Source: Haloprofundus halobius (lineage in GTDB: Archaea > Halobacteriota > Halobacteria > Halobacteriales > Haloferacaceae). From it: a stretch of DNA of 64,000 nucleotides. The number at the start of each line of letters is the position of its first letter. Positions within the stretch are counted from its first letter, which is position 1. Below, one piece after another: positions 11,112 through 26,154 of this stretch. The notes under the pieces are model-generated. The model was not told where the DNA came from. It did no database searches and saw only the letters and a list, made by a program, of their open reading frames with translations. A program made the position numbers and the translations under genes. The stretch is from NCBI RefSeq assembly GCF_020097835.1, contig NZ_CP083667.1, positions 1-64,000 of the forward strand, read 5' to 3'.

Positions 11112-12125
11112 TCACGTGATGGAGTGAGTAGTACATTCAATAGTAAACGTCTCTGTTGACCCGCCTGGAAGGCAATTGGCAGTTCCGTTTTCAATAGCTT
11201 CCTTAAGGCCTGCGTTGGGTATTGATGTCGACGGTTCAAGCCCGATGTTGTAGTTTCGACCGAAAAACGGGGCCTCAGTAAACCCTCCGAAAGGTTGCCA
11301 GTACCAGAGATACTCAAAAAGATCCTCTGGGAAGACCACATTCACTCCAAGATTTATCTCCGGATTTTCTACTGTATAGCACCCCTCTTTCAAGTCCGTG
11401 AGCACAACTAAGTCATGAACCCGCTCAGATTTCGGCGGGAACGAGCGTAAATCGACTTCCTGACCATCGAACTCACAAATCGGCCATTCGAATGTCTCGC
11501 CCGCTGGGAAGCGAGCCTCTGGAATGTCGTGATCGGGATCTACGAGAACTGTGTCACAGGGAACGGAGAGCGACGCTTCTGGGGAAATTAGTGGCTCTCC
11601 AAGGGCGATGTGTTGTAACCAAGAGTAATCAACAGCGACTTCACTTTGATTCCGTACAGATTCGGTTACAATGAGCGAAGATTGACCAGCTTTAAGACTC
11701 AGTTCGCGCGTTATCTGCAGGGGATATCGAGTCAATGAAGTCTCTAATCTAACACACACTCGATCAACTGTGTCTTCAACGATAATGGCATCCCATGGGA
11801 CGAGCGTTGCCTCTCCATGAAGCGCGAGCGGCGCTCCATGGATTGTGGACGGGCCTCCGGCCCCCGGTAAGACATCTTGCCATCCACCGGGATAGTGGTC
11901 CAAGAACCGGAAATGATCATCATGACCTCCGATCGGCCCCTGGGCTGGAGATCGCCACTCGTGCGGTGCCTCGAAAAGAATATTTGTATCAGTCCGTTTG
12001 TCTCGAATCTCTGTTATATCGGCGCCCTTCCCGGCCAGCACTTCGACACGAAGGTGTGCATTTTCGAGGATAACGACGTCGAGTCCCTTCTTCTGATACT
12101 GGTCCGTAATCCGGCAATTGCGCAT
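11112..12125 (-). CDS. Aldose 1-epimerase/DUF4432-like protein
   Basis: A 337-aa protein of the galactose-mutarotase-like beta-sandwich superfamily. Sequence cues are VEVLAGKGADITEIRDKRTD near the N-terminus (usual 'G..I..I..K....ILW'), HGAPLALHGEA (putative His region), and a long run of beta strands ending in FTIECTTHS. The family interconverts sugar anomers or binds modified hexoses. Next to an IclR regulator and GH38 glycosidase genes, it probably supplies the right anomer of the released sugar to a dehydrogenase. It faces away from the GH38 genes and may share regulation with the IclR gene just upstream. Confidence 0.75.
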   Translation of the reverse strand: MRNCRITDQYQKKGLDVVILENAHLRVEVLAGKGADITEIRDKRTDTNILFEAPHEWRSPAQGPIGGHDDHFRFLDHYPGGWQDVLPGAGGPSTIHGAPLALHGEATLVPWDAIIVEDTVDRVCVRLETSLTRYPLQITRELSLKAGQSSLIVTESVRNQSEVAVDYSWLQHIALGEPLISPEASLSVPCDTVLVDPDHDIPEARFPAGETFEWPICEFDGQEVDLRSFPPKSERVHDLVVLTDLKEGCYTVENPEINLGVNVVFPEDLFEYLWYWQPFGGFTEAPFFGRNYNIGLEPSTSIPNAGLKEAIENGTANCLPGGSTETFTIECTTHSIT

Positions 12126-12247
12126 ACTCTATACGTACACAGCGATATTATAAACATTCTGAATCAGTATGGTTTGCACCTGTCTAAGTCAGTTGAATGA
12201 CGTGTCGATCATTGAGTAGAGCGTGCAAATCAAGGACATAACTCTAT

Positions 12248-13012
12248 TCAGTAATGAGTCAATTTTAATTCAATTACATTAGCGTGGTTTCGCAGCGTGT
12301 CGAGTAACTCATTTTCTATTCGTTCGTCGGAGAATCGAGTTTTCGGTCCCGAGACGGATATCGCGCCAACAACCGCCTTTTCATTGAGGATGGGCACGGC
12401 GACGGCTCGGATGCTCTCCCAGTGTTCTTCATCCTCTATAGCGTATCCTTGATCACGGATCTTGGCTAAATCCTCGAACAGTACATCGGGTTCCGTTATG
12501 GTTTGTGCGGTCGATTCTGGTAAACTGTAAGTATCGATGATTTCCTGAATACGTTCTTCTGGCTGGTGAGCGAGTAACGCTTTTCCGAGAGAGGTCCAGT
12601 GCATATTGGTGAACTCACCGATTTGAGCGTTATCGTAGATTGCGTCTCTCCCTTCAGAGATATAGAGGAGAACTCGCTTTCCGTTCTCTTCGACTCCTAG
12701 ATTAGCCACCTCTCCTGTTTCCTCTGCGAGCGCATCGATTTCCGATTCGGCGACGTGGAAAATGTCGAAATTTTGTCTGACCGCTACTCCGTGATCAAGA
12801 AACTGTAAACTGAGCCTGTACTCGTTGTCTTCCTTGTAGAGATACCCCGCTTCGTACATCGTCTTGAGGTGAATGTAGGCTGTGCTCTTCGGGAGATCGA
12901 GACTCGATGCGAGTTCAGTCACGGTCTTAGGTCCCCTGTCCCTCAGATGTCTAACTATCATAAACGCAGTTTCAACGCCCTGGAGAGTTTGTCCCTTGGT
13001 CTCTTCTGGCAT
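12248..13012 (-). CDS. IclR-family transcriptional regulator
   Basis: A 254-aa protein. The winged helix is at residues about 8-65 (KTVTELASSLDLPKSTAYIH) and the IclR effector domain at about 80-250 (GEVANLGVEENGKRVLLYIS, MHWTSLGKALLAHQPEE, AVAVPILNEKAVVGAISVSG). The length is normal. It is divergent from the GH38 pair with 129 bp between. IclR proteins are usually local regulators of sugar or aromatic catabolic genes, so it probably controls the GH38 and transporter genes. The ligand is unknown. Confidence 0.9.
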   Translation of the reverse strand: MPEETKGQTLQGVETAFMIVRHLRDRGPKTVTELASSLDLPKSTAYIHLKTMYEAGYLYKEDNEYRLSLQFLDHGVAVRQNFDIFHVAESEIDALAEETGEVANLGVEENGKRVLLYISEGRDAIYDNAQIGEFTNMHWTSLGKALLAHQPEERIQEIIDTYSLPESTAQTITEPDVLFEDLAKIRDQGYAIEDEEHWESIRAVAVPILNEKAVVGAISVSGPKTRFSDERIENELLDTLRNHANVIELKLTHY

Positions 13013-13104
13013 ACATTGCGATATTACGTGTCAGAACTTAAAGCTGGGGTAGATATCTCTTCCAACCAACTTAAACGACGCTAATGGCTAGCGCGTGAAA
13101 AACA

Positions 13105-13113
13105 TTTAATAAA
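13105..13113 (+). promoter_or_regulatory. TATA box of the GH38 operon
   Basis: TTTAATAAA lies 29-37 nt upstream of the ATG at 13142, so transcription should start at or within a few nt of the start codon (leaderless mRNA, common in haloarchaea). Confidence 0.6.
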
Positions 13114-13141
13114 GAGGCCAACTCCATATTCGTGGTGTAGC

Positions 13142-14383
13142 ATGACACAAGTAGACACAATACAATTGATAAACCATTGTCACACCGACATCGGGTATAC
13201 TCATGACCAACCCGTGCTGTGGGACCTCCAGCGCCGATTTATCGACGACGGTATTGCTGCGGCTGCGGAGGATTTAGAAGTGGACAGTCCGGACGCGTTT
13301 CATTGGACGATCGAAACGACGGGACCGCTGCTTCGATGGCTTGAGACTGCGAGCGACAAGCAGATCGAACAATTACAGCGACTGGAGGAGGCCGGACGCG
13401 TCGAAGTCACCGGAATGCTGGCGAATATCACGCCGTTGTACGGTCCGGCTCAGACCGACGAGACACTCCGGCCAATCCAACGCCTTCGGGACGAGTACGG
13501 TTTCGACATCAAGTACGGGATGAATTGTGACGTGAACGGTCAGAATTGGTCGTTTCCGGATGCACTCCTCGACGCCGGTATCGAGGGATTCTCCATGGCC
13601 ATCAACGAACACTTCGGCGGGGCACCGCTCAAGCGTCCCGAGGTGTTCCGGTGGGAAGCACCGAGCGGTCGAGAGCTCCTTGCTTTCAACGGGTATCACT
13701 ATTCGACGGGACATCAGATGGGTATCGGTCGCGATCTTGAGGAGCTACGAGACAAGTGGTGGCCCCGGGTCGAACGCCAACTTGAAGCCGCAGAGTATCC
13801 ACTCTCGAAGCTCCTGATCCAGAGCTATCACCCGTTCGGCGATAATGGACCCGCGTATCGCGAATTCTCCGACTTCATCCGTGAATGGAACGATCTGGAC
13901 GCCGTTCTCGACGGTGAACTTCCGGTGATCGAGATGGCGACGCCGGCAGACTGGTGGGAGCACGTCCAGTCTAACGTTGACTGTCTGGAAGCCTACAGCG
14001 GTGACTGGACGGACTTCTGGAATTTCGGAAGCATAAGCAGCGCCCGAGAAATGTCAATAAACAGGGAAAATCGGCGTCGGCTCCTTACTGCCGATGCACT
14101 CGAAGCGGGGCTGGGCGCGCTCGGCGCTGCAGATCATCAGCGCGAACCGACGCGGCGATCGGCACCGGAAACCCGCGATGATGCCTGGTGGGCGACCCAC
14201 TTCTTCGACGAGCATACGTGGGGTTCTGATACCGCAGTAAGTGTTCCGGAGGGAGAAGATGCAGCAAGTCAGTGGAATCATAAAGCCAACTATGCCTACC
14301 ATGGTCGGAGCCTCAGCATGATGCGACAGCGGGATAGTATCGCCGAACTTGCGCGACGAGTGTCCACGGGTGATACCCAATGA
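13142..14383 (+). CDS. GH38 alpha-mannosidase-like protein, N-terminal catalytic part
   Basis: 413 aa corresponding to the catalytic domain and linker of GH38 enzymes (retaining alpha-mannosidases, Zn-dependent). The metal motif HCHTDIGYTHD is at residues 12-22 (H12, H14, D16). The predicted nucleophile region is KYGMNCDVNGQNW with Asp130. SYHPFGDNG (about 225) and DEHTWGSD (about 360) are further active-site segments. There is no signal peptide, so it acts in the cytosol on imported oligosaccharide. The protein stops exactly where the C-terminal beta-sandwich begins in one-piece homologues. That part is the next gene, overlapping by 4 bp (ATGA). Confidence 0.85.
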   Translation: MTQVDTIQLINHCHTDIGYTHDQPVLWDLQRRFIDDGIAAAAEDLEVDSPDAFHWTIETTGPLLRWLETASDKQIEQLQRLEEAGRVEVTGMLANITPLYGPAQTDETLRPIQRLRDEYGFDIKYGMNCDVNGQNWSFPDALLDAGIEGFSMAINEHFGGAPLKRPEVFRWEAPSGRELLAFNGYHYSTGHQMGIGRDLEELRDKWWPRVERQLEAAEYPLSKLLIQSYHPFGDNGPAYREFSDFIREWNDLDAVLDGELPVIEMATPADWWEHVQSNVDCLEAYSGDWTDFWNFGSISSAREMSINRENRRRLLTADALEAGLGALGAADHQREPTRRSAPETRDDAWWATHFFDEHTWGSDTAVSVPEGEDAASQWNHKANYAYHGRSLSMMRQRDSIAELARRVSTGDTQ

Positions 14384-15924
14384 GTACCGACGGAATCTTC
14401 CTCTTCAACCCCCTCCCCTGGGAGCGGGAACTGTCCGGACCGATCGCGGATCAGGTGGTCAACCCCCGCGGCGTCCCCAACGACGAAACTTCGGGACGCC
14501 ACTTTCAGGATCGTGACAACCACCGACTCGCTCCGTCGGGCTTCGTCGATGACGAAGACATCGAGTCGATGTTCAGCCCTGGTGGGTACTACCTCCCTTC
14601 GACGGCGGTGCCCGGATACGGGTGGACAGTCGTTCCGCGAGACGAACTGATCTCGATCGAAGGAAGTTCGTTCGACGAACGGTCGACCGTCGAAACCGAT
14701 CGGTACGTTCTGACCTTCGACAGAGACAGCGGTGGGATCGCGAGCTGGTACGACAAAGATCGGAACTGCGAGTGGGTCGATCACTCGTCGGAATATCCGC
14801 TCGCCGGTTTCGTTCACGAGGAAGTCGTCGATAACGAAACGGATCGTCCGCGGAAGCGGCTCTTCGATTATCGTCCCGAGGTAGAAGACCGCCACGCCGC
14901 TGTCGCCGGTATCCTCGATGCCCCACGCGGTTTCCGGCCGGATTGGCACGGAGCTCGATCCGGGCCCGATCGGGTTCTTCAACATCGCGTCTTCGATGGC
15001 CCGGAGAGATACGAGGTACGACAGATACTGGAGACGCCGCAGGTCGAGAGTAACGTTGTGCTCCAGTTCTCGATCCCGACCGACGGGGACACGATAACGG
15101 TTGATGCGCAGTGGGATATGGGTCTCCGGACCCAACCCGAAGCGACGTATCTGGCGTTCCCGTTCGACCTCGACGACCCGACTCCCCGCCTCGATGTCGG
15201 CGGACAGGCGATGGAACCGGGCGAAGATCAACTCCCCGGGTCGGTCTACGACTACTATACCGTCCAGTACTGGGCTGACCTCTCCGACACCGATCGCGGA
15301 ATGACGATCGGTTGCCCCTTGAATCCGCTCGTACAACTGGGTGACTTCAACTTCGCCGAAAATCAGTGGGAGTTCGACCTCGAACACCCGCTGTTCCTCG
15401 GGTGGGTGACGAATAATTACTGGGACACCAATTTCCGGGCTCACCAACCGGGTCGCGTGCGCGCACAGTATCATCTCACTCCGCACGACGAGTTCGACGA
15501 AGCGTTGGCACACAAATCGGGTCTAGAGGCGACGCACTACGAGCCGCTGGCACAGACACTAGGTGAGGGAACGATGGACGAACCGCCGATCGAAGGATCC
15601 GGGCGGTTCCTCAATCTGCCCGAACTGCCAGTGCTTGTGACGCAGATTCGGCCGGTTGATGCTGACACGGGAGTCTTCCATCCGGGGATCGAGACCGTCG
15701 ATGATCGTGACGATCGTATCCTCGTTTCCCTCCGGAACGCCTCGGATGACGGCCGTACGGCTCAGATCGGTCACGGTGAACTCGTGATTGATGACGCCGC
15801 GCGCACAGATCCGACCGGGAAAATCACTAAAGAGAACCTTCGAGTAACTGAGAACGGCGTCGATGTTCGAATGGAGGCCCGCGAGACGGTTACTGTCCGC
15901 CTTGACGCCGGGTTGAACGAGTAA
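14380..15924 (+). CDS. GH38-like protein, C-terminal beta-sandwich part
   Basis: A 514-aa protein starting with GIFLFNPLPWERE, the phrase that marks the start of the GH38 C-terminal region in single-chain enzymes. Mostly beta-strand sequence follows (FDRDSGGIASWYDKDRNCEW, the usual 'G.I.S..D' motif; TYLAFPFDL; YDYYTVQYWADLSD). It lacks the catalytic HxHxD segment. The 4-bp overlap with the upstream gene suggests coupled translation and assembly of a two-subunit enzyme. Alternatively a single-gene ancestor was split by a small indel. The intact length of both halves favours functional subunits. Confidence 0.8.
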   Translation: MSTDGIFLFNPLPWERELSGPIADQVVNPRGVPNDETSGRHFQDRDNHRLAPSGFVDDEDIESMFSPGGYYLPSTAVPGYGWTVVPRDELISIEGSSFDERSTVETDRYVLTFDRDSGGIASWYDKDRNCEWVDHSSEYPLAGFVHEEVVDNETDRPRKRLFDYRPEVEDRHAAVAGILDAPRGFRPDWHGARSGPDRVLQHRVFDGPERYEVRQILETPQVESNVVLQFSIPTDGDTITVDAQWDMGLRTQPEATYLAFPFDLDDPTPRLDVGGQAMEPGEDQLPGSVYDYYTVQYWADLSDTDRGMTIGCPLNPLVQLGDFNFAENQWEFDLEHPLFLGWVTNNYWDTNFRAHQPGRVRAQYHLTPHDEFDEALAHKSGLEATHYEPLAQTLGEGTMDEPPIEGSGRFLNLPELPVLVTQIRPVDADTGVFHPGIETVDDRDDRILVSLRNASDDGRTAQIGHGELVIDDAARTDPTGKITKENLRVTENGVDVRMEARETVTVRLDAGLNE

Positions 15925-15950
15925 TCTTTCGTTCGAACCCAGGAGTTCTT

Positions 15951-17048
15951 TTACGGATTCGGCTCCGTCAGTTCCGACCGGGACGAGGTGAGCGCTTCGC
16001 CGTCGGAGAACAGATGCACTCGTTCGTCTGGGATATCGAACCGGAGTTCGTCTCTGTCTTTCAGGGTCCCGTCGCGCTGTGCCTCGGCGATCAACTCTAC
16101 GTTACCAATTTCCAAGTACAGGAGAATATCGGTTCCCGTCGGCTCGACGACTCTTACGTCCGCGTGATATTGCCCCGTTTCCGTGATGTCGATGTGCTCC
16201 GGTCGAATACCCATCCGGATGTCCGTCGCGTCTGTCCCGGATACGGCATCTAACAGCTCGTCCGTAAGTTCGTAGCTGAAGCCGTCAAATTGAATCGTCC
16301 GCTGGTCTCGATCTAATCGCCCGTCGATGAAATTCATGCTGGGTGATCCGATGAATCCCGCGACGAATTCGTTTGCCGGATCATCGTGGAGCTCCTCCGG
16401 TGTTCCGACTTGTTGGACCTCTCCCTTGTCGAGAACCATGATCTTTGTTCCCATGGTCATCGCCTCGACCTGATCGTGGGTCACGTACACGAACGTCGTC
16501 CCGATCTGCTCATGTAGCTGCTTTAGTTCCGTGCGCATCTGGGTCCGCAACTTGGCGTCGAGATTCGACAGCGGCTCATCGAGCAGGAACACGCTAGGGT
16601 CGCGAACGATCGAGCGACCGAGGGCGACGCGCTGTTGTTGGCCGCCGGACAGCTCCGAGGGACTTCGATCGAGAAGCTCCTCGATGTCGAGGATGCGCGC
16701 CGCTTCCTCAACTTTGCGCTTTATTTCGGAGTCGGAAATACCCGATACTTTGAGCGAGAGACCCATGTTCTGCCGAACGGTCATGTGCGGGTAGAGAGCG
16801 TAATTCTGGAACACCATCGCGATGTCTCGCTCGGCCGGCTCCAGGTCGGTTACGTTTCGACCACCGATGAGGATCTCGCCTTCAGTCGCGTCCTCCAGAC
16901 CGGCGACACACCGTAGGGTCGTTGATTTCCCTGACCCCGACGGCCCGAGCAAAACGAGGAAATCGTTGTTATCGGCTTCGATCGATACGTCATCGGCGGC
17001 GACGACTTCGCTAAATCGCTTGGTAAGATTTTGTATTTGTAACGACAT
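15951..17048 (-). CDS. ABC transporter ATP-binding protein (MalK/UgpC type)
   Basis: 365 aa. Walker A GPSGSGKST is at about 35-43, Q-loop FQNYALYPHMTV at about 81-92, signature LSGGQQQR at about 133-140, Walker B VFLLDEPLSNLDAKLR, and H-loop YVTHDQ. A C-terminal TOBE/OB regulatory domain (about 240-365) is typical of carbohydrate importers of the MalK group. It is the last gene of the minus-strand sugar block, 44 bp after the binding-protein gene, and energises the two permeases at 21.5-23.3 kb. Confidence 0.92.
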   Translation of the reverse strand: MSLQIQNLTKRFSEVVAADDVSIEADNNDFLVLLGPSGSGKSTTLRCVAGLEDATEGEILIGGRNVTDLEPAERDIAMVFQNYALYPHMTVRQNMGLSLKVSGISDSEIKRKVEEAARILDIEELLDRSPSELSGGQQQRVALGRSIVRDPSVFLLDEPLSNLDAKLRTQMRTELKQLHEQIGTTFVYVTHDQVEAMTMGTKIMVLDKGEVQQVGTPEELHDDPANEFVAGFIGSPSMNFIDGRLDRDQRTIQFDGFSYELTDELLDAVSGTDATDIRMGIRPEHIDITETGQYHADVRVVEPTGTDILLYLEIGNVELIAEAQRDGTLKDRDELRFDIPDERVHLFSDGEALTSSRSELTEPNP

Positions 17049-17092
17049 TGTTTAATTCGTATAGGTAACGAAATATTGGCACGTTCTACGGG

Positions 17093-18433
17093 TTACTCGT
17101 ACACGCGCTGGCGTTCATTCTCGATCTTCTCAGCAACCTGTTGGACTCGATCGGGATACTGGAGGAGCTGTTCGAGCGTCTCAGTCGCTGGTTGCGCAAC
17201 CTCCGGTGAGGTGTTTTCCCAGTATCGGAGCGAGAACTGGATGTCTTCTTCGTTGATCGTATTCACCAGATTCCTCTTATTCTCGTCGAGGAACGAGGGA
17301 TCAACTTCCTGATTAGTGGGCGGGAACCCTAGCTCTTGATTCACCGTCGATTGGAACTCGGGACTTAACACAAGGTCAATGAACTCGCGCGTCATCTCTT
17401 CGTTTTCCGTCCCTGCGTGGGGGACGATTGGTCCCGGTTCGATAATCATCCGCGGATTCTCATCTCCACTTATATTTGGCAGGATGAACCATCCCATATC
17501 AGAGAACTCGAGATCGTTCTCAGAGAAAATCCCACTAAGCCAGTCTCCGCTAGCATGCATTACGTATTCTCCGTTCGCCAATTGCTGTTGGGCTGTTGGT
17601 GATTCTAGCTGAAACATCCTTTCTGCTGGCCCGAAGTATCCGTTCCGTTGATACTCAGCCATTTTCTCGAGCGCCCAAATAGCAGTATCGTCTGTGTACT
17701 TTGCTTCGCCGCGGCATAGTGCGTTGTAGAACTCTGGATCCTCGTGAATGAGGAATTCTTCGAACCAAACGAACGTCGGCCAGGAAGATTCCCCTAGTGG
17801 TATTTGGATCGGTATCTTGTCTGTCTCTGCGATGTCGGCGCAGATCTGTTCGAAGTCCGACCACGTCTCGGGTTCTGAGAGACCCATCTCGTCGAACGTA
17901 GCCTTATGATACCACACAACCCAGTAACTGAGGTAGTACGGGACAGCGTAGGCGCTTCCATCGGCTGAGAATTGCTGCATGAGACTTTCGTCATACTCAC
18001 CATTCTCAATGTGGGCTTCCCACTGCTCTGTGATGTCCAATGCGTAACCGTCCGAAGCGATGTCGCGAAGGCGCTGACCGGTCCACCACGTAAAAAGGGT
18101 GGGACCATCAGTAGTCCCGAAAACTGGCCGCAGCGCACCTTGGTACGAATCCGTACTACCGTATGACGTGACAGACACCTCGGCGGGCGCCTCTCCTTCG
18201 ATTTCCGAAAAGCTGGTTTTGAAACCGTCGTCCCAATCCGGCTTGTCGTGCCAGAACGCTGCTTGAGTGCTTCCCCCGTCTCCACCCCCGCTACTGCCAT
18301 TTTCCCCAGTATTTTCGCCGTCACCGGACCCGCTGCATCCTGCCAACCCTAGCATTCCACCTGCGGCGAGCGCCTTCAGAAGGTGACGCCGATCCTGACT
18401 AGCTGCACTCTGACCTCTGTTACCGTCGGGCAT
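17093..18433 (-). CDS. Extracellular sugar-binding lipoprotein (ABC type)
   Basis: 446 aa. The N-terminus has a twin-arginine motif (DRRHLLKAL), a hydrophobic stretch and a lipobox LAGC, so it should be exported by Tat and lipid-anchored. A Gly/Ser/Asp-rich linker of about 30 residues follows, as usual for haloarchaeal binding proteins. The mature part is a family-1 solute-binding fold (TFDEMGLSEPETWSDFEQIC is the usual hinge phrase; FTWWTGQRLRDIASDGYALD). The substrate is probably an oligosaccharide containing mannose, inferred from neighbours. A TATA-like sequence lies about 28 nt upstream. Confidence 0.88.
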   Translation of the reverse strand: MPDGNRGQSAASQDRRHLLKALAAGGMLGLAGCSGSGDGENTGENGSSGGGDGGSTQAAFWHDKPDWDDGFKTSFSEIEGEAPAEVSVTSYGSTDSYQGALRPVFGTTDGPTLFTWWTGQRLRDIASDGYALDITEQWEAHIENGEYDESLMQQFSADGSAYAVPYYLSYWVVWYHKATFDEMGLSEPETWSDFEQICADIAETDKIPIQIPLGESSWPTFVWFEEFLIHEDPEFYNALCRGEAKYTDDTAIWALEKMAEYQRNGYFGPAERMFQLESPTAQQQLANGEYVMHASGDWLSGIFSENDLEFSDMGWFILPNISGDENPRMIIEPGPIVPHAGTENEEMTREFIDLVLSPEFQSTVNQELGFPPTNQEVDPSFLDENKRNLVNTINEEDIQFSLRYWENTSPEVAQPATETLEQLLQYPDRVQQVAEKIENERQRVYE

Positions 18434-18460
18434 AACACGAGAATGATACTGATGAACTAT

Positions 18461-18467
18461 GATAAAG
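18461..18467 (-). promoter_or_regulatory. TATA box of the sugar-binding protein gene
   Basis: On the minus strand CTTTATC lies about 28-34 nt upstream of the ATG at 18433. This implies a separate leaderless transcript for the abundant binding protein within the block. Confidence 0.45.
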
Positions 18468-18598
18468 ATTAGGGATGGTTACAATAGGTTACACCAAAAA
18501 TTAGTCTCGCAAAACAAGACACGATATCCACACGAGGTGGTCGGTCAGTACGTCCGCGTCGTACAGGGCTTTCTCGAAGGATAGTCGGAGAGACAGAC

Positions 18599-19381
18599 TC
18601 AGTATCCGCCCGCGAGATATCCGCCGTCAACCAAGAGCTGGGCACCCGTAATCCATTCCGCTTCCTCGCTTACGAAGAAACTGACGGCATTAGCGATGTC
18701 TCGTGGTTCGCCGAGACGCGGTAGTGGAGTATTTCGTTCCTGTCGCTCCATCGTTTCTTGGTTGTTTAGGTCCTGCATTGGCGTCTTGATAACGCCTGGA
18801 AGAATCGTGTTGACGGTCACGCCGTCGTCTGCAACTTCCATGGCGAGGTCGCGGGTGAAATTCACGATACCAGCTTTGGTTGATGCGTATGCCGGCCCCC
18901 CTCCACCGAAATGGGCGTTAACGCTGCTAATGTTCACAATACGGCCCGCATCTGAGCCAGTAATGTGTGGTAGTGCGTACTTCGCGGTCAGAAAGTATGC
19001 GGTGAGATTGACATCCAGCTGCCGTTGCCAATCATCTCTCGAGAGTGACAGGGTCGTGCCCGGAATTAGGATTCCCGCGTTATTGATGAGGATATCGATT
19101 CGACCAAACTCGTCGACCACTTCCTCGACAGTAGTCTCAATATCGGCTTCGTCCGTGAGGTCCGTTTCTATAAAGACGGCGTCGCCGTGTTCCTCTTCTC
19201 GAATGGCTTCGTCCGTTGGCTTCGTCACGTTCGTATCGTAGTGTTTTCCCGACTTTGGGGCGTGGCGTTTATCGACAACGGCAACGCTGAACCCGTCTTC
19301 CGCGAGGCGAAGAGCGATTCCGCGGCCAATACCCGAACTCCCACCAGTAACAACGGCTACTCGACCATCATGCGCAGTCAT
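18599..19381 (-). CDS. SDR-family sugar dehydrogenase
   Basis: 260 aa, classical short-chain dehydrogenase. The nucleotide motif TGGSSGIGRG is at about 12-21, NNAG at about 98, catalytic Ser in ISSVNAH and YASTK (Tyr/Lys). I chose the start at 19381 (MTAHDGRVAVVTGG); the frame is open much further upstream but only antisense to the next gene. Members oxidise aldoses or aldonates. Beside a lactonase and mannonate dehydratase it could be a mannose 1-dehydrogenase or a mannonate/fructuronate oxidoreductase. The first fits the lactonase better, which is inference. Confidence 0.85.
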   Translation of the reverse strand: MTAHDGRVAVVTGGSSGIGRGIALRLAEDGFSVAVVDKRHAPKSGKHYDTNVTKPTDEAIREEEHGDAVFIETDLTDEADIETTVEEVVDEFGRIDILINNAGILIPGTTLSLSRDDWQRQLDVNLTAYFLTAKYALPHITGSDAGRIVNISSVNAHFGGGGPAYASTKAGIVNFTRDLAMEVADDGVTVNTILPGVIKTPMQDLNNQETMERQERNTPLPRLGEPRDIANAVSFFVSEEAEWITGAQLLVDGGYLAGGY

Positions 19382-19454
19382 ATCAACTACCAACCCACAA
19401 ATCGGTGAAAAATCTATCGGGTATACAATCCGAGTTTGGTTGGGTTTACGTTCA

Positions 19455-20486
19455 CTAATCGGCGTTTTCGGCTGCTCTGAGCATTCCACGAATGTATCCG
19501 ATCGTGAATGCGCGACCGCTCGGTCCCCAATCCGCTTCGCCCGCCATCTTCGGAACGTGATCTGGAATGACCATCCCTTCGAACCCCCCCTCGATAAGCG
19601 TCTCCAGTACCTCGTATTCGTCATAGTTGCCCTCATCGATAAACACTTCCTGAAACGAAGGAACGTGGTTCTTGACGTCCCGAAAGTGAACGTAACTGAC
19701 TTTGTTTCGTTGAACGAAAAAGTCCACCATCTCTCGCACCTCCATCTCGCTGTCCATCTCGGAGAGTACTCCAAGCGCTAGCTGAATTTTGTGGTTATCG
19801 CTGGAAACGACTTCCATTGCCCTCCGTAGATTTTCGAAATTTCGAAAGAGACGTGCAATCCCGCCAAGCGACGAGACTGGGGGATCGTCCGGATGGAGCG
19901 CAAGCGTTACTCCCTCCTCTTCCGCAACCGGCAGTACCTCTTCGAGAAAGTATCGGTAATTTTCCCAAATTTCCGACTCGGGATACTCCCGATCATGTGT
20001 CAATGGTGCTTGTTCCATATCCTCCATATCGAACGCCGTCGACGTAGCGCCGCCTCGTCCGGGTCGGTTTAAGGACGACCGCCAGACGCGGTTTGGCATC
20101 CAGTTGTATCCGAGCGTGGTAATCCCCGCACGACCCATATTCTGGATGGTGGCTTTTACGTTCTCGAGTTGCTTCTCTCTCCCGTCTTGACCAAGCATGA
20201 TGTCGTCGTAAAATGAGAGGGGTAAGTTTTCGATAGCACCGAACGTAAAGCCGCGTTCCTCGATAAAGTTCCGAAGGTGGAGAAGTTCCTCAAACGACCA
20301 CTTCGAGTCCGTGGAGAGAGGTAATTCTTCGTCGGGAAGATACGACTGGGCGTACGGATGGACGATGATGTGAGAAACGTTTAGCTGTTTTGCGAACTGA
20401 AGTCGTTCGTTCGTCGGATTGTTAAACCGAAGCGAAGGGTAGATTCGGCTCTCAAGTCTCTGGGCCTTTCCCGCCTTGCGACTCAT
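19455..20486 (-). CDS. uxuA: Mannonate dehydratase
   Basis: 343 aa, UxuA-type xylose-isomerase-like TIM barrel that dehydrates D-mannonate to 2-keto-3-deoxy-D-gluconate. Diagnostic segments are TTLGYNWMPNRVWR, LALHPDDPPVSSLGG (metal-binding His/Asp) and YVHFRDVKN. The C-terminal VIPDHVPKM is the usual 'DHVP' signature. I chose MSRKAG at 20486; a frame extension of seven residues to 20507 is unlikely because it overlaps a TATA-like AATAATAT about 28 nt upstream. It forms the core of the proposed mannose oxidation route. Confidence 0.88.
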   Translation of the reverse strand: MSRKAGKAQRLESRIYPSLRFNNPTNERLQFAKQLNVSHIIVHPYAQSYLPDEELPLSTDSKWSFEELLHLRNFIEERGFTFGAIENLPLSFYDDIMLGQDGREKQLENVKATIQNMGRAGITTLGYNWMPNRVWRSSLNRPGRGGATSTAFDMEDMEQAPLTHDREYPESEIWENYRYFLEEVLPVAEEEGVTLALHPDDPPVSSLGGIARLFRNFENLRRAMEVVSSDNHKIQLALGVLSEMDSEMEVREMVDFFVQRNKVSYVHFRDVKNHVPSFQEVFIDEGNYDEYEVLETLIEGGFEGMVIPDHVPKMAGEADWGPSGRAFTIGYIRGMLRAAENAD

Positions 20487-20543
20487 ACTATGAGGACACA
20501 AGCTCAAAGATATTATTAGTTACTTTTCCTGTGGGTGGGAGAT

Positions 20544-21440
20544 TCACTCACCGCTGAGGTCAACCGCTGTCAGGTGCCAGAGGCCGAGGTTTGCGATATA
20601 GAGGGTGTGCCCGGTCGGTCCGCCAAAGCTGATATTCGTAGGATTGCCGATAATAAGTCCGTCCGGATCCTTGATGATGCATTCGATTTCCTGATCTGCC
20701 GTCGGCACCCGGGGATCAGCGAGCCGATACACGGCGTTATCGCCGATGGATGCCGCATAGAGTCTGTCCTTCCAGTCGAATCCGAGTCCATCGACCATCC
20801 CGAACCCGTCGGTGACGTGGGTCACCGCTTCGGTAGTGCCGTCGACGAGTTCCACGGCAGAAACCTCGTGCAATCCCGTCTCCGCCACGTAGAGCCGTGA
20901 CTCGTCCGGGGAGAGCGCGAGTCCGTTCGGAAACGCCGATGGTTCTTCGGTCAAGATCCGGCCCGTACCGTCAGGTTCAACGACGTAGATGCACCCGTCG
21001 GCGTTCGCCATCTCGCTCCGTTCACCGGAGTCCGAGATGTACAACCGCCCCGCCGAATCGAAGACACAGTAGTTCGGGTGACGCGGAGCCGTGTCGCTGT
21101 CGCCGGCGACGACCACTTCCAGATCACCGGCCACACCGTCGCTGTCGATCGGAAGGCGGAAAACCGCGTGTTGTTGGAAGTCACAGGCGTAGAGCGCTCC
21201 GTCGGGTCCAATCGTAACACCGAGTACGAATCCGCCGGTGTTTCCGATTTCGTCGACGACGTTCGTTTCCGGTTGTATCCGATACAACTGCCCGTTCTCA
21301 CCACCCGCGTAGAGTGTTCCGTCGTCTGCAACGGCTACGTCTTCGGGGTGGTCCAACCGCGTTCTAAGCCACGGATCGGCGCCTATGATCGCTGCATCCG
21401 AGAGTCGACATACGTGTGATTGTGGGCCGTTAGCAACCAT
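20544..21440 (-). CDS. SMP-30/gluconolactonase-like sugar lactonase
   Basis: 298-aa six-bladed beta propeller of the SMP-30/LRE family. Repeating blade phrases are EDVAVADDGTLYAGGENGQLYRI, GVTIGPDGALYACDFQQHAV, FPNGLALSPDESRLYVAE and MVDGLGFDWKDRLYAASIGD. The conserved Asn and Asp of the metal centre (NYCVFDSAGRLYISDSG, FPNGLALS) are present. It would hydrolyse an aldonolactone such as mannono-lactone to the acid. It is cotranscribed with the permeases upstream (48 bp gap) and uxuA downstream. Confidence 0.85.
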   Translation of the reverse strand: MVANGPQSHVCRLSDAAIIGADPWLRTRLDHPEDVAVADDGTLYAGGENGQLYRIQPETNVVDEIGNTGGFVLGVTIGPDGALYACDFQQHAVFRLPIDSDGVAGDLEVVVAGDSDTAPRHPNYCVFDSAGRLYISDSGERSEMANADGCIYVVEPDGTGRILTEEPSAFPNGLALSPDESRLYVAETGLHEVSAVELVDGTTEAVTHVTDGFGMVDGLGFDWKDRLYAASIGDNAVYRLADPRVPTADQEIECIIKDPDGLIIGNPTNISFGGPTGHTLYIANLGLWHLTAVDLSGE

Positions 21441-21488
21441 ACACCCACGGACCGGCCGACAGGTGAAAAATGTTGGTGTAGGCGGTGT

Positions 21489-22379
21489 CTATCCCTTCTG
21501 TGTCCCGGCCAGCAACCCGCGGACGAAGTGCTTCTGGAAGAGGAGGAAGACGACGAGCGGCGGGCCGACGGTGAGCAGCGTTCCGGCGGCGAGCACCGTC
21601 CAGTCGGCGCTTCGACCGCCGAGGAGAGCGAGGGCAGTCGCCATGGGGCGAGCGTCCGGACTCGACGTGAGAACTAGCCCGAACAGGAACTCGTTCCAGA
21701 TCCAGATCCACTGGAAAATGAGTGCCACAGCGAGTGCCGGTTTGGCCAGCGGCAGGTAGATCTTCCAGTAGATCTGAAATTTCGAGAGCCCGTCGATTCG
21801 AGCGGCCTCGTACAGGGAGTTCGGTATAGTAATAAAGTAGTTGCGCAGGACGAAGGCGGCGAAGGGGATCGCGATCGTGATGTAAATGATCGAAACGCCG
21901 GTCTTCGTGTTGTAGAGCCCGGTCATGTTGGCCACCTTGACAAGCGGGATGAGGTACATCTGGAACGGGAAGAAGGTGAACAGCAAGATCAGGAAGAGGA
22001 TGCCATCCCGGTACGGGATGTCAAGTTGAGCGATCGTAAAGCCCGCGAGTGATGCTAAAAACACCGCGATCACGGCCCCAACGGATGCGTAAATCAGGCT
22101 GTTGATCGCGTAGTTGCCGAAGTTCCCGTCCGACCACGCCTCCCCGAGATTGCTGATTAACGCGATGCTTTCAGGGAGAGACCAGAAGGCCCCCTGGGGG
22201 AGACTGGGTTGTACCGCGATGTATAGTAACGCCAACAGGGGAATCAACCAGAGGACAGAAATTAAGACGATGAGTCCCCCCCGAAGCACGTTGAACCCGT
22301 TCAAGTTTTTGAGGTACTCGGCGACGTCGTTTTTCGCTCCGTCGACTGTTGGCTGTCCGGGTCGCTCGTCAGTCGCCAT
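21489..22379 (-). CDS. Sugar ABC transporter permease (MalG type)
   Basis: 296 aa with six predicted membrane helices and the EAA loop YEAARIDGLSKFQIYWKIYLPL (about 195-216), which contacts the ATPase. The N-terminus is cytoplasmic. It overlaps the MalF-type gene by 1 bp, so the two are translationally coupled. Confidence 0.9.
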   Translation of the reverse strand: MATDERPGQPTVDGAKNDVAEYLKNLNGFNVLRGGLIVLISVLWLIPLLALLYIAVQPSLPQGAFWSLPESIALISNLGEAWSDGNFGNYAINSLIYASVGAVIAVFLASLAGFTIAQLDIPYRDGILFLILLFTFFPFQMYLIPLVKVANMTGLYNTKTGVSIIYITIAIPFAAFVLRNYFITIPNSLYEAARIDGLSKFQIYWKIYLPLAKPALAVALIFQWIWIWNEFLFGLVLTSSPDARPMATALALLGGRSADWTVLAAGTLLTVGPPLVVFLLFQKHFVRGLLAGTQKG

Positions 22380-23332
22380 CAGACGTCCACCTCCCGCTGG
22401 ATATTGTACCGGATGTAAATCACCGTCACGCCGATAACCAAGATCGTCAGCACGTTAGCCACGGCCGCTCCGGCACCGAACCGGTACTGTCCGAAGGCCA
22501 GTCGATACATGGTGACGGCGAGCGTCTCCGACGAATTGAACGGCCCGCCGCCGGTCATGACGTAAATGATTCCGAAGATCTTGAGCACATTGAAGAGGAT
22601 CGTCGCCACGACGAGCGTAGTAAACGGCCGAAGCATCGGAAACGTAAGATAGCGGAATCGCTGCAGTCTCGACATGCCGTCGATCCGAGTCGCCTCGATC
22701 AGATGGGTCGGGATGGAGCGAAGCCCGGCCAAGTAGATCACCATTGCGAAGGCGCTGAACAACCACACCTGTGCGACCATCATGGCGAACGTGTTCACTT
22801 TCGGAATTCCCAACCACGGGCGAGCGTACTCTCCGAGGCCGATCGTGTGGAGAAATAGGTTGAGGAGACCGACGTCTCCGCTGTAGATGAGCTGCCACAT
22901 GATCGCGACGGCGACGAACGAGATCGCGTAGGGGAGGAAAAAGAGCGTCTTGAAAAAAGACTCCCCGGTGACGTCGTCGATCAGCAGTGCCAGCCCCAAT
23001 CCGGCAATCGGCGGGAAGACGACCATCGCCACGGTCCACATCAGCGTGTTGATGACGGAATTCACCAGGTCCGGACTACTGAAGAATAGTTCGTAGTTCT
23101 CGAAACCGACAAACGTCTCGGGCCATCCAGTACCGTCCCACGTGAAAAAGCTCACGTACACGTTGAAGACGATCGGGATCCCGAGGACCAATACTAACAG
23201 CAAAATCGGTGCGAACAGGAAGAGATACTCCGCTATTGGGTCGAGTTTGATCTGTAGTCGCTGCCACGCGGCTTTCCACCTGGGTGCATCACTACTCACC
23301 CTTGAATCCGTGCTACTGGCTGTCGAGCTCAT
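22379..23332 (-). CDS. Sugar ABC transporter permease (MalF type)
   Basis: 317 aa with about six membrane helices. The EAA loop is IEATRIDGMSRLQRFRYLTF (about 217-236) and the N-terminal helix VFNVYVSFFTWDGTG is typical of CUT1 permeases. It is the first gene of the minus-strand block. A TATA-like ATTAAATA at 23355-23362 lies about 26 nt upstream of its start, implying a leaderless operon promoter. Confidence 0.9.
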   Translation of the reverse strand: MSSTASSTDSRVSSDAPRWKAAWQRLQIKLDPIAEYLFLFAPILLLVLVLGIPIVFNVYVSFFTWDGTGWPETFVGFENYELFFSSPDLVNSVINTLMWTVAMVVFPPIAGLGLALLIDDVTGESFFKTLFFLPYAISFVAVAIMWQLIYSGDVGLLNLFLHTIGLGEYARPWLGIPKVNTFAMMVAQVWLFSAFAMVIYLAGLRSIPTHLIEATRIDGMSRLQRFRYLTFPMLRPFTTLVVATILFNVLKIFGIIYVMTGGGPFNSSETLAVTMYRLAFGQYRFGAGAAVANVLTILVIGVTVIYIRYNIQREVDV

Positions 23333-23354
23333 AGCAGCACAATATTCCGCCTCC

Positions 23355-23362
23355 TATTTAAT
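23355..23362 (-). promoter_or_regulatory. TATA box of the ABC/mannonate operon
   Basis: ATTAAATA on the minus strand, 23-30 nt upstream of the MalF-type start codon. Confidence 0.55.
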
Positions 23363-23547
23363 CTCTAGGTAGAACCGACTCCTATCTAGTGCTGACATGC
23401 GCTAAATGGAACATCAAGGTGATTCTCGCTCCCCCTTATGGTTTCCTCTCTACACATACTGAATTTTTCTATAGGGTACAGACGCATCCTAGCTAGTCTC
23501 CTAATTGAGCTCAACGTTTATTATATTCGTATGGTAACAATGATACC

Positions 23548-23865
23548 ATGTTAGGGGTTGACGCCCCACACCTGACCCACCACAAATACCGATATCGAGT
23601 AAACACACGATCTACCAGTCGACTGAAATGTTCAATGGCAGTTTATCGGCGGAGCGATCGATCTGGCAAGGGTAATCTCGACGACAAGGGTCCGAACGTA
23701 TTCAAGTGAACAATCGAAGCGACAGGTCCGTTACTCCATTGGCTTCGACCCGCGTCTGACGACCAGATAGAACGCTTTCAGCGGCTTAAAGACGCCGGGC
23801 ATATCGAGGTCATGGGAATGTTAGCGAACAACACTCCCCTGTTCGGCACGATAGAACTTGTGGAG
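23548..23865 (+). pseudogene. Decayed second copy of the GH38 N-terminal gene
   Basis: Protein-level remnant of the gene at 13142. From an ATG at 23548, VDAPHLTHH aligns with the intact N-terminus. After a shift, NTDIE-stop-THDLP aligns with HTDIGYTHDQP. Then TIEATGPLLHWLRPASDDQI and ERFQRLKDAGHIEVMGMLAN align with residues 61-102 of the intact protein. The Trp codon before TIE is TGA. Even the upstream TATTCGT.TGGTA matches the GH38 promoter area. It is cut off at about 23865 by the IS6-like remnant. This shows that a GH38 gene once stood divergent from the transporter operon. Confidence 0.8.
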
Positions 23866-24560
23866 AGTTTCGGTCGTTACAGTCAAGCTGACCGCTCAAC
23901 TCGTGACGAGTGAGAGCAGTCAAGTATTCCATGCCGTCTACCAGAAACTCGGTGTCTTCGACATCGTGTTTCTCAATGAAGCGATGGAGGAACGCCGTCG
24001 TGGAATCGAGTAGTCTGCATTAGTTCTGACCCGTCACTCTCGGTCTTCTCGATTGCTGCCACATCGTCGCTTTCGGACGATTCTTCGGTCGCCATCGTTT
24101 CAAAGCGGCTCGCCGCAATTGGTGTTCAGAAGCTGCGCTAACCACTCGGTCCTGCGGCGGCTGCACACACCAACCTCCAGAACCAGCTTTGACTCCATGT
24201 TGATGGCGACATAGAGTCACTTCTTCTCGCCATCTACCACAATCTGTTTCTCGTCTACCCCGACCCGCCGTCGGCGGGTCGCTTTGGGCTTCTGAGAGCG
24301 TGTCCAGTATGACGCCCAGGAGGCGACTGAGTTCCAGACCGCGCCTTGAGATTGGACGACGCCGAGCCAGCACAGTACCGCTGCGCCCTCATGCACCAAC
24401 AACCCCATTGAGTGCAGGTGTACCCCGAACATCCTGACGGATATCGGGGTGCGTTCCGTTCTCCCAAACCTCATCAGAGTCCACCGATACGGCCCTCTGA
24501 GCAGGTCTGCGAGATGCAGGGACACAACTCGCTACGACCTGTTCGTTCCTCAAACTCGTT
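23866..24560 (-). pseudogene. IS6-like DDE transposase remnant
   Basis: Minus-strand frames together read as a DDE transposase. EVADLLRGPYRW-type start, FGVHLHSMGLLVHEGAAVLC and VGVDEKQIVVDGEKK (first catalytic Asp) come from 24217-24525. After shifts, LYVAINMESKLVLEVG, AFLHRFIEKHDVEDTEFLVD (second Asp) and SGQLDCNDRN lie between 24210 and 23870. Several frameshifts and stops make it inactive. No clear terminal repeats remain. Its left edge abuts the GH38 remnant. Confidence 0.7.
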
Positions 24561-25056
24561 CAACTAGACCGTGCCTATCATACTGGTGTGACGCCACCGA
24601 GTCGCCACGGTAGAAACAGTAGGTGAACAACGTGCGCGAGGTCCCGCGAGCAAACGTCACCCACACACACACACTAGACATCAACCCGTGACAGAGGAGG
24701 TACGTGCCCCCTCCCCATCCGTCAGTTCTGTCAGGCTGCAATCGGTCCTCAAGGGATAGGGCGAACGGATCGGGGGATGCCATCGGACGGTCCGCCGTCG
24801 AGTGACCTGAAGCCGGGGTCGGTTTTATCTTGCTGGCTTTCCTCACCACGTCTATGCAGTCACGAAGCATACGGTACGGAAGACGCTGGTCCCGGCAGTC
24901 ACACGCTGCCGTCGATACTGGTTTTGCGCGGACAAGTCGACAATTCGTTACTGGGCTCTCCCGCGCTGTCGATGGTGTAGTCTCGTCGCAGCCAAGGAGA
25001 CCAGAAGTTGTCGCCCCGATTGAGTACGCCGATCCGACCCACGTGAACGAGTAACT
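24561..25056. other. Unassigned region upstream of the oxidoreductase gene
   Basis: About 500 bp with no confident gene. A 74-codon plus-strand ORF (24830-25054) ends right before the next start codon (GAGTAACTGTG) and could be a leader ORF or the remnant of a coupled upstream gene. Its Arg/Ser-rich composition is unlike haloarchaeal proteins. A short CACACACACACAC run lies at about 24661-24673. Confidence 0.4.
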
Positions 25057-26154
25057 GTGACGTACAGCGCCGGCATCATCGGAACTGGGGGCATCGCGGG
25101 AATGGGTATCCTCGGTATGCACGACGAGGACGTAATCGGACAGGAGAAGATCCGGGCCAGCCACGCGGGCGGTTACGACGCCCAGGAGGCGATTGAACTT
25201 GTGGCGGTTGCGGACATCGACAAGGATAAGCTCGCCCAATTTGGTGATGCCTGGGACATCCCGCCCGAACGTCGGTACGTCGGCCACGAGTCAATGCTCG
25301 AAGCCGAGGACTTGGATGTCGTCTCGGTGTGTACCCCGTCGTACCTGCACCACGAACACGTCGTCGACACGGCACAGTCAGCAGCTGATCCGGACGTGAT
25401 CTGGTGTGAGAAGCCGATCGCTTCACAGATCAGCGCGGCTAAGGAAATGACGGACGTCTGCGCCGAGTCAGATACGGAGCTCGTCGTCAACCATTCGTTC
25501 CGGTTTACTGACAAGCTCCGGACGCTCAAGCGACTGATCCAGGAGGAGGGTTTCCTTGGCGAGGTCCAGTCAGTAAACACGCAGTTCCGTATGGAACTGT
25601 TGCGCAACTCGACCCATCTACTCGATACGTTGGTGTACCTCCTCGACGCCCGCGCCGAGACGGTGTCTGGGTACGTTACTGGTGAGAACGAGGCCGTCGA
25701 TTCGCTCCGGGCTGGCCAGCAAGTCGACGACGCCGGCGGGGGTGGGTTCGTCGTGTTCGACGATGGGACCTTCGCCACCGTCGACTGTACGATTCCGCGG
25801 AAGTCGTCGTCGATGACCCTGAATTTCGTCGGCAGCGAGGGAAAGCTGTACATGAACAATGACGACGGCGAGTGGCGATACTGGCGGCTCGACGACGGCG
25901 ACCACGTCGAGGAACCGCTCCCGGGGATAGACGGATTCTGGACCTGGGAGGACGACTATACGCGGGCATTCCGCAACGCAGCCACCCATGTTGTCGACCT
26001 CCTTGAGGGTGAGACGACGAACTGCTCGTCCGGTGAGGAGGCCACGCGCAGTCTGGAGATTATCGTCGGGTTCTACCTCTCGCATTACACCGGCGGGCAG
26101 GTTACTGTCCCGCTCGCGGGGCCGCTCCTAGACGTCCGCATCACGTCCTGGTGA
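25057..26154 (+). CDS. Gfo/Idh/MocA-family sugar oxidoreductase
   Basis: 365 aa. The N-terminal Rossmann motif is GIIGTGGIAG (about 6-15), AVADIDKDKL gives the NAD(P) ribose-binding Asp, and CEKPIA (about 117) is the family EKP motif. HSFRFT and RNSTHLLD (catalytic His region) follow, then a C-terminal alpha/beta domain. The start is GTG at 25057. It oxidises or reduces a sugar or cyclitol and lies at the edge of the mannoside island. It may act on the released hexose or on a modified sugar; the substrate is unknown. Confidence 0.85.
   Translation: MTYSAGIIGTGGIAGMGILGMHDEDVIGQEKIRASHAGGYDAQEAIELVAVADIDKDKLAQFGDAWDIPPERRYVGHESMLEAEDLDVVSVCTPSYLHHEHVVDTAQSAADPDVIWCEKPIASQISAAKEMTDVCAESDTELVVNHSFRFTDKLRTLKRLIQEEGFLGEVQSVNTQFRMELLRNSTHLLDTLVYLLDARAETVSGYVTGENEAVDSLRAGQQVDDAGGGGFVVFDDGTFATVDCTIPRKSSSMTLNFVGSEGKLYMNNDDGEWRYWRLDDGDHVEEPLPGIDGFWTWEDDYTRAFRNAATHVVDLLEGETTNCSSGEEATRSLEIIVGFYLSHYTGGQVTVPLAGPLLDVRITSW

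Follow-up and report, generated by a model that had tools for sequence, protein, structure and literature searches.

A candidate oxidative α-mannoside utilization island in the haloarchaeon Haloprofundus halobius

Introduction

Can a haloarchaeon degrade imported α-mannosides by oxidizing the released sugar? The question is raised by a gene island at positions 11112–26154 of the window, the stretch of 64,000 nucleotides analysed here (bases 1–64000 of the 422.8 kb contig NZ_CP083667.1, C2 in our numbering) from Haloprofundus halobius, the genome of which comprises 3.95 Mb in five contigs and is 99.7% complete. The original prediction, made from the DNA alone, had read the island as a mannoside importer, a mannosidase and a set of enzymes leading through mannono-lactone and mannonate to 2-keto-3-deoxygluconate (KDG). 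The chemistry has precedents in the sections of three papers drawn on here: a mannonate dehydratase was suggested for mannose use in H. lacusprofundi (2011; PMC3102087), conversion of mannose to mannonate and KDG was predicted for Natronoglomus mannanivorans, with β-mannan clusters (2024; PMC10963439), and a Thermoplasma acidophilum route of AldT, ManD and KDG aldolase was built in vitro (PMC6901390).

With moderate confidence, we favour the island as a catabolic unit for α-mannosides with an oxidative route to KDG, the substrates and reactions of which we infer throughout. A CUT1 importer would bring in a mannoside or manno-oligosaccharide, and a two-gene enzyme of glycoside hydrolase (GH) family 38 would cut it in the cytoplasm. 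A DUF4432 protein may speed anomer exchange; a short-chain dehydrogenase/reductase (SDR) would oxidize mannose at C1 to the lactone, which an SMP-30 protein would open. Removal of water to give KDG would fall to a UxuA-family protein, or to a different dehydratase should that copy be altered, and a KDG kinase would pass the product to the semi-phosphorylative Entner–Doudoroff route. An IclR regulator would control the unit.

Results

Proposed import of a mannoside and release of mannose

The importer proved to be a complete CUT1 set, as predicted: a sugar-binding protein, two permeases and a MalK-type ATPase lie together (Table 1). GH38 neighbourhoods were then compared. The catalytic half of the GH38 enzyme (GH38N) matched 11 records of a plasmid collection at a cover of at least 80%, five haloarchaeal and six bacterial; the regions around the match were examined in 5/5 of the former and 5/6 of the latter, Nonomuraea being left out with no annotated feature under its match. 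In 5/5 annotated cases, the bacterial loci (Arthrobacter citreus, two Deinococcus, Parabacteroides and Streptomyces) combine a class I mannose-6-phosphate isomerase with a ROK protein, both within about 8 kb. Four of the five also carry a sugar-binding protein and two sugar permeases and lack an ATPase gene in that stretch; in Parabacteroides, a GH92 and an MFS gene replace the importer genes. The window island lacks the isomerase/ROK pair, the place of which is taken by a dehydrogenase, a lactonase and a UxuA-family protein; nor is the pair listed in the five annotated haloarchaeal GH38 stretches. Around a weak DUF5054-type match in Martelella (46% cover) no isomerase or ROK gene was found within the 8.8 kb examined. 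The released sugar is called mannose chiefly because the bacterial GH38 loci hold the isomerase and the ROK protein, and by this comparison mannoside import with mannose release, as first proposed, appears well supported.

Proposed oxidation of the released sugar

The SDR, which probably starts at ATG 19381 and not at the mechanically assigned TTG, narrowly passes the threshold of an NCBIfam glucose 1-dehydrogenase subfamily (217 versus 215 bits), a result that says little about its substrate. AldT of T. acidophilum is an SDR. Two types of SDR were found near UxuA-family genes. One, linked to the glucuronate isomerase UxaC (loci L037, L038 and L053), is 31–34% identical to the window SDR; the other, at 46–51% identity, occurs in genome G227, Haloarcula amylovorans, Salinigranum and Natrarchaeobius, and no UxaC gene was found in stretches of about 20 kb around these four. 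The DUF4432 protein has a sole solved relative at E 0.01, the 'hypothetical aldose 1-epimerase' 3ty1 (E 1e-4); the protein, first described as aldose-epimerase-like, belongs to DUF4432, on which a search of titles gave no paper concerning sugar catabolism. PDB matches of the SMP-30 protein include the gluconolactonase 8djf and the β-propeller lactonase 7ris, both ranking below designed propellers.

Among 292 genomes sampled from the class, 14 carry the window-type SDR (E 1e-60), 24 carry the DUF4432 protein (E 1e-40) and seven carry both, an overlap with a hypergeometric P of 2e-5 in a test that ignores shared ancestry. The two genes lie within 16 kb of each other in six of those seven. SMP-30 relatives at E 1e-40 occur in one other genome, G040, where one of two copies is 4 kb from a DUF4432 gene and 12 kb from an SDR gene. 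Related sets recur elsewhere. G227 has UxuA-family (53% identity), SDR (51%) and DUF4432 (63%) genes within 5 kb. Natrarchaeobius combines the SDR with a Gly-type UxuA-family gene (see below), an importer and a lactonase of another family, and Salinigranum has the same set, with a lactonase recognized solely from a 27% match. In Microvirga ossetica a single run holds an IclR regulator, a CUT1 importer, two UxuA-family genes, SMP-30, SDR (33%) and aldose 1-epimerase genes; its UxuA is 41% identical, its enzymes are 30–41% identical overall and its epimerase is unmatched by the window DUF4432 protein. Embleya has DUF4432 (33%), SMP-30, SDR (34%) and UxuA (41%) genes within 9 kb. Two strains of Halomontanus rarus have GH38, GH99-like, UxuA-family, NAD(P) oxidoreductase and IclR genes and an ABC importer of another kind in one region, which in one strain also includes a split GH38 pair and DUF4432.

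A KDG kinase was found in the genome (493 bits; cut-off 440), in agreement with the predicted feed into the semi-phosphorylative Entner–Doudoroff pathway. The oxidative gene set is thus complete at family level, with dehydrogenase, lactonase and dehydratase candidates and this kinase. As to a KDPG aldolase, none of four DHDPS-family genes exceeds the aldolase cut-off, the best being DapA. The genome gave 0 matches to UxaC (control positive in 7/14 genomes) and none to type I mannose-6-phosphate isomerase (control positive in 8/14), a search that did not extend to PGI/PMI-type and GlcNAc-epimerase-type isomerases. Successive action of the SDR, the lactonase and the UxuA-family protein is supported by the repeated co-location and the KDG kinase, and also by the failure to find UxaC or type I mannose-6-phosphate isomerase; against the proposed order stand altered residues in the UxuA-family protein.

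That protein, with a probable start at ATG 20486, had been put down as a mannonate dehydratase. Family and fold bear this out: a predicted model (predicted local distance difference test, pLDDT, 88.6) fits Streptococcus suis ManD 3ban with a template-modelling score of 0.82, and the next folds are the Enterococcus faecalis and Escherichia coli ManD structures, followed after a wide gap by sugar epimerases. The NCBIfam mannonate dehydratase cut-offs do not, being missed at 157 versus 191 and 108 versus 200 bits; the relative at L051, which has Trp at the position of Tyr325 (S. suis ManD numbering), likewise falls below them. In S. suis ManD we take His199, Cys237, His266 and Asp310 to bind Mn, and His311 and Tyr325 to be catalytic. 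The alignment retains His199, His266, Asp310 and His311, while Cys237 becomes Ala and Tyr325 becomes Trp, so that the metal site of the window protein reads His, Ala, His, Asp and only one of the two catalytic residues is kept. Dehydration is the weak link of the proposed pathway because two active-site residues of the characterized enzymes are missing.

Evidence against the oxidative reading and alternative explanations

Several findings weigh against the oxidative reading. Other haloarchaeal GH38 loci carry different sugar genes. At locus L054 (C2:365000-384900) of the same genome, a second GH38 pair is accompanied by two sulfatases, Gfo/Idh genes, a ketohexokinase-like PfkB protein and a DeoC aldolase, making up a separate island that is perhaps devoted to a sulfated sugar; H. 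rarus TS33 has one GH38 locus with fucosidases and a sulfatase; the GH38 locus of G133 neighbours an importer and an MGH1-like hydrolase. GH38 and the window-type SDR occur together in 1/292 genomes, the window's own. The SDR/DUF4432 pairs of G104 and G062 lie with Gfo/Idh genes, and that of G104, by Pfam, also with GH88 and CoA-ligase genes and no sign of mannose; the pair is therefore not specific to mannose and need not consist of mannose enzymes. The bacterial modules are distant, at about 30–41% identity. Two ROK proteins are encoded elsewhere in the genome, so that mannose may instead take a phosphorylative route. Finally, in 134 UxuA-family sequences, chosen for their resemblance to the window protein or to relatives of it and therefore a biased, non-independent sample, Cys237 is present in 133, the window Ala being the sole exception; the Tyr325 position is Trp in 116, the window included, and Tyr in 16; and the window branch is long (0.65 versus a median of 0.11).

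These last features lend some weight to a possible though less probable explanation, namely that mannose is oxidized but the window UxuA-family protein, through decay or a change to a different sugar acid or to epimerase-like chemistry, is not a mannonate dehydratase, and that some other enzyme, such as a gluconate dehydratase, carries out the dehydration. The missed NCBIfam cut-offs point the same way, as does the last motif, WGPSGR in the window and mostly WxHRGR or WxHRAR in relatives. The intact frame, the four retained residues and the clearly ManD-like fold speak for a working mannonate dehydratase. Trp is thus the mark of a large subfamily, and Ala that of the window copy alone. UxaC is present in 12/46 loci examined, and the UxuA-family gene is Trp-type in 11 of these 12 and Tyr-type in L053. 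In the 11 haloarchaeal loci, five of which have a GH67 gene, the Trp-type gene and UxaC are at most about 10 kb apart, a setting in which one would expect a mannonate dehydratase; Trp by itself therefore seems compatible with mannonate dehydration, and Ala is without such support. No second UxuA-family gene was found in the genome at E 1e-20, and a first contig scan with a single UxuA-family protein as the query was uninformative.

A doubtful alternative of the same rank keeps the chemistry of the oxidative route and has a small mannoside imported in place of mannan fragments, for instance mannosylglycerate or a compatible solute related to it. MngB of E. coli is a mannosylglycerate hydrolase of family GH38. 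In G133 and G174 the GH38 loci include importer genes as well as a GH about 690 residues long, MGH1-like in G133 and assigned in G174 from length and place alone. Among SDR relatives, the closest (59% identity; locus L191 in G178) adjoins a DUF4147/MOFRL glycerate-kinase-type gene near an MGH1-like GH and two MalK genes, a setting that suggests a compatible-solute glycoside pathway. Against this alternative, the window island showed no glycerate kinase, and the pairing of GH38 with a GH99-like gene in H. rarus points to α-mannan.

It is unlikely, and would be of wider consequence, that the Trp-type UxuA subfamily, above all the Cys-less window copy, performs a different reaction on an oxidized sugar; if so, the SDR/lactonase/TIM-barrel sets of haloarchaea, Microvirga and Embleya would form an undescribed aldose-oxidation pathway.

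A glucuronide pathway, with the SDR as fructuronate reductase and with mannonate derived from fructuronate as the substrate of the UxuA-family protein, is very improbable and was rejected. The UxuA family classically serves hexuronates, as the UxaC-bearing loci illustrate, and the UxaC–UxuB–UxuA pathway shares with the island that family and entry at KDG. The window, however, has no UxaC match, nor does the genome; its SDR differs from the UxaC-linked type and resembles that of four loci with no UxaC found nearby; an importer and GH38 occur instead of a glucuronidase; and GH38 and the lactonase would have no role. The original prediction had itself named the fructuronate reductase as the case that would count against it, and the type of SDR disfavours it. 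Least probable of all is a 3-keto route that would start with oxidation of the glycoside by the Gfo/Idh protein and give the TIM-barrel protein the role of an eliminase or hydratase. In its favour are a weak NCBIfam resemblance to levoglucosan and glycoside 3-dehydrogenases and the presence of the 2-hydroxy-3-keto-glucal hydratase 8ro4 low in the fold list. Against it, the Gfo/Idh gene is not part of the operon and is mostly placed differently in other genomes, ManD structures head the fold list (best E 8e-26 versus 3e-12 for the first other protein), and an SDR and lactonase would be idle.

Two variants were seen within the UxuA family. Gly replaces Asp310 in 5/134 proteins (L084, L088, L089, L093 and L074:7980-8996), and L088 has a GH88 gene nearby. 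An LLM-class (F420-type) oxidoreductase, at least 73% identical, accompanies UxaC and the UxuA-family gene in 8/12 UxaC loci with the query locus counted (L039, L042, L043, L044, L045, L046, L073:11012-12091 and L085); in three of the remaining loci an SDR lies near the UxuA-family gene instead, and one has neither. This oxidoreductase may stand in for fructuronate reductase, to which it would be unrelated.

The GH38 enzyme

The GH38 family assignment held (61 bits versus a cut-off of 25), and the single enzyme gene did not: two open reading frames (ORFs) share a 4-nucleotide ATGA overlap, and the second aligns to the C-terminal part of four single-chain bacterial GH38 proteins. Homologues carrying both parts in one chain are those of Arthrobacter, Deinococcus AB2017081, Parabacteroides and Streptomyces; the Deinococcus AJ005 copy looks interrupted, its match falling in two pieces. 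Residues H14, D16, D130 and H358 of GH38N, which presumably serve GH38 enzymes as zinc ligands and nucleophile, are the same in 9/9 aligned haloarchaeal sequences, the window included. A model of modest confidence (pLDDT 64) has GH38 α-mannosidases as its closest folds; phmmer and a nine-row profile gave no match of GH38N in the PDB. With no signal sequence evident by eye, the catalytic half is probably cytoplasmic.

The subfamily is rare (4/292 genomes, five copies; E 1e-20) and is split into two genes in 10/10 haloarchaeal loci examined (window, L054, L061, L062, L063, L069, L070, L071, L078 and L206). At the eight junctions examined the genes overlap, by 4 nucleotides in five and by 8 in three. 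A programmed frameshift fusing both genes was rejected because the overlaps vary in length and frame. H. rarus has single-chain GH38 proteins of another type besides the split ones. Two unannotated records from a faecal phage collection also match GH38N.

Arrangement of the island and neighbouring genes

Profile searches found all of the predicted IclR, GH38, SDR, UxuA, SMP-30 and Gfo/Idh families in the island, in intact frames. DUF4432 and IclR on the minus strand are followed by the two GH38 genes on the plus strand, the minus-strand importer and oxidation set and the plus-strand Gfo/Idh gene. Reading downwards from 23332, the minus-strand set runs permease F, permease G, SMP-30, UxuA-family protein, SDR, binding protein and ATPase, with spacing from a 1-base overlap to 165 bases (taking the SDR start at 19381) that appears operon-like. 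Intergenic DNA inspected by eye for an IclR operator showed nothing convincing. The plasmid collection held no record with most of the island; DNA-level matches were to the Gfo/Idh and ATPase genes only.

Table 1
Features of the island, with positions in the window and supporting matches
Feature	Position	Strand	Evidence
DUF4432 protein, candidate aldose mutarotase	11112..12125	minus	Pfam PF14486, 85 bits, E 4e-24
IclR-family regulator	12248..13012	minus	Pfam PF01614 and PF09339
GH38 catalytic half	13142..14383	plus	PF01074, 61 bits, cut-off 25
GH38 C-terminal half, separate gene	14380..15924	plus	PF07748, 21.4 bits, just under cut-off 25
MalK/UgpC-type ATPase	15951..17048	minus	ABC_tran, OB_MalK, TOBE_2
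Extracellular sugar-binding lipoprotein	17093..18433	minus	SBP_bac_1, 87 bits; Tat/lipobox-like N-terminus read from sequence
SDR, candidate aldose (mannose) 1-dehydrogenase	18599..19381	minus	NCBIfam PRK07231, 217 bits, cut-off 215
UxuA-family protein, candidate aldonate dehydratase	19455..20507	minus	PF03786, 201 bits, cut-off 24
SMP-30/gluconolactonase-like protein, candidate aldonolactonase	20544..21440	minus	PF08450, 87 bits, cut-off 26
Importer permease, MalG type	21489..22379	minus	BPD_transp_1, 76 bits
Importer permease, MalF type	22379..23332	minus	BPD_transp_1, 42 bits
Gfo/Idh oxidoreductase	25057..26154	plus	PF01408, 61 bits

The Gfo/Idh gene had been counted with the island; its family was confirmed and its membership of the unit was rejected. 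It is set off from the importer operon by 1.7 kb (23333–25056) to which no gene is assigned, which did not match the plasmid collection and which may be a promoter region or the remains of decayed genes. Membership was rejected because in 4/5 other genomes with a 73–77% identical copy (ten searched) this copy has no window-type SDR or DUF4432 gene within 20 kb, and because the gene adjoins other genes in Halomicrobium. Counter to this, G104 has it close to SDR and DUF4432, and in H. rarus, Halocatena and G236 it has UxuA-family genes nearby. It is probably a separate transcription unit, a neighbour of the island.

Discussion

The island resembles several known systems in part. The T. acidophilum route likewise leads from mannose through mannonolactone and mannonate to KDG without a phosphorylated hexose, and begins with an NAD-dependent mannose dehydrogenase; it differs in that the lactone is said to open spontaneously and that importer, GH38, mutarotase and lactonase genes are undescribed in the sections of the paper drawn on here (PMC6901390). 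Its ManD may belong to the UxuA family or to the enolase family. Natronoglomus and H. lacusprofundi share with the island, in the sections cited, a haloarchaeal host, a mannonate dehydratase, an IclR regulator and the semi-phosphorylative Entner–Doudoroff route (PMC10963439, PMC3102087). Natronoglomus differs in using β-mannan with extracellular mannanases and GH2, and the identity of its dehydrogenase is a guess; the main text of that paper contains none of the terms GH38, alpha-mannosidase and lactonase (PMC10963439). The bacterial GH38, permease, ROK and isomerase loci of Arthrobacter, Deinococcus and Streptomyces share GH38 proteins of 28–37% identity and importer genes of the same kind. 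They use a kinase-family protein and an isomerase for mannose, whereas the window has a dehydrogenase, a lactonase and a UxuA-family protein, and GH38 is one chain in the proteins compared, versus two genes in the window.

A haloarchaeal cluster of GH38, importer, dehydrogenase, lactonase and UxuA-family genes was not found in the literature searched, which mostly excluded subscription journals; nor did that literature give anything for haloarchaea with 'mannose dehydrogenase', and listings for haloarchaea with α-mannosidase and GH38 returned nothing useful. The sections consulted of a further paper list growth on mannose and lack the terms GH38 and mannonate (PMC12343721). The novelty claimed at the outset holds only in part, because the route was proposed before (PMC3102087, PMC10963439, in the sections cited): the pathway idea is already known, and the assembled module appears to be new.

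The proposed haloarchaeal oxidative mannose route gains a compact gene set that supplies candidates for its previously open steps: the importer, the glycosidase, the mannose dehydrogenase and the lactonase. Where bacteria place a related mannosidase with a kinase-family protein and an isomerase, the downstream part here appears to have been exchanged for oxidation. The altered UxuA-family enzyme would provide a test of the need for the conserved Cys and Tyr in mannonate dehydration.

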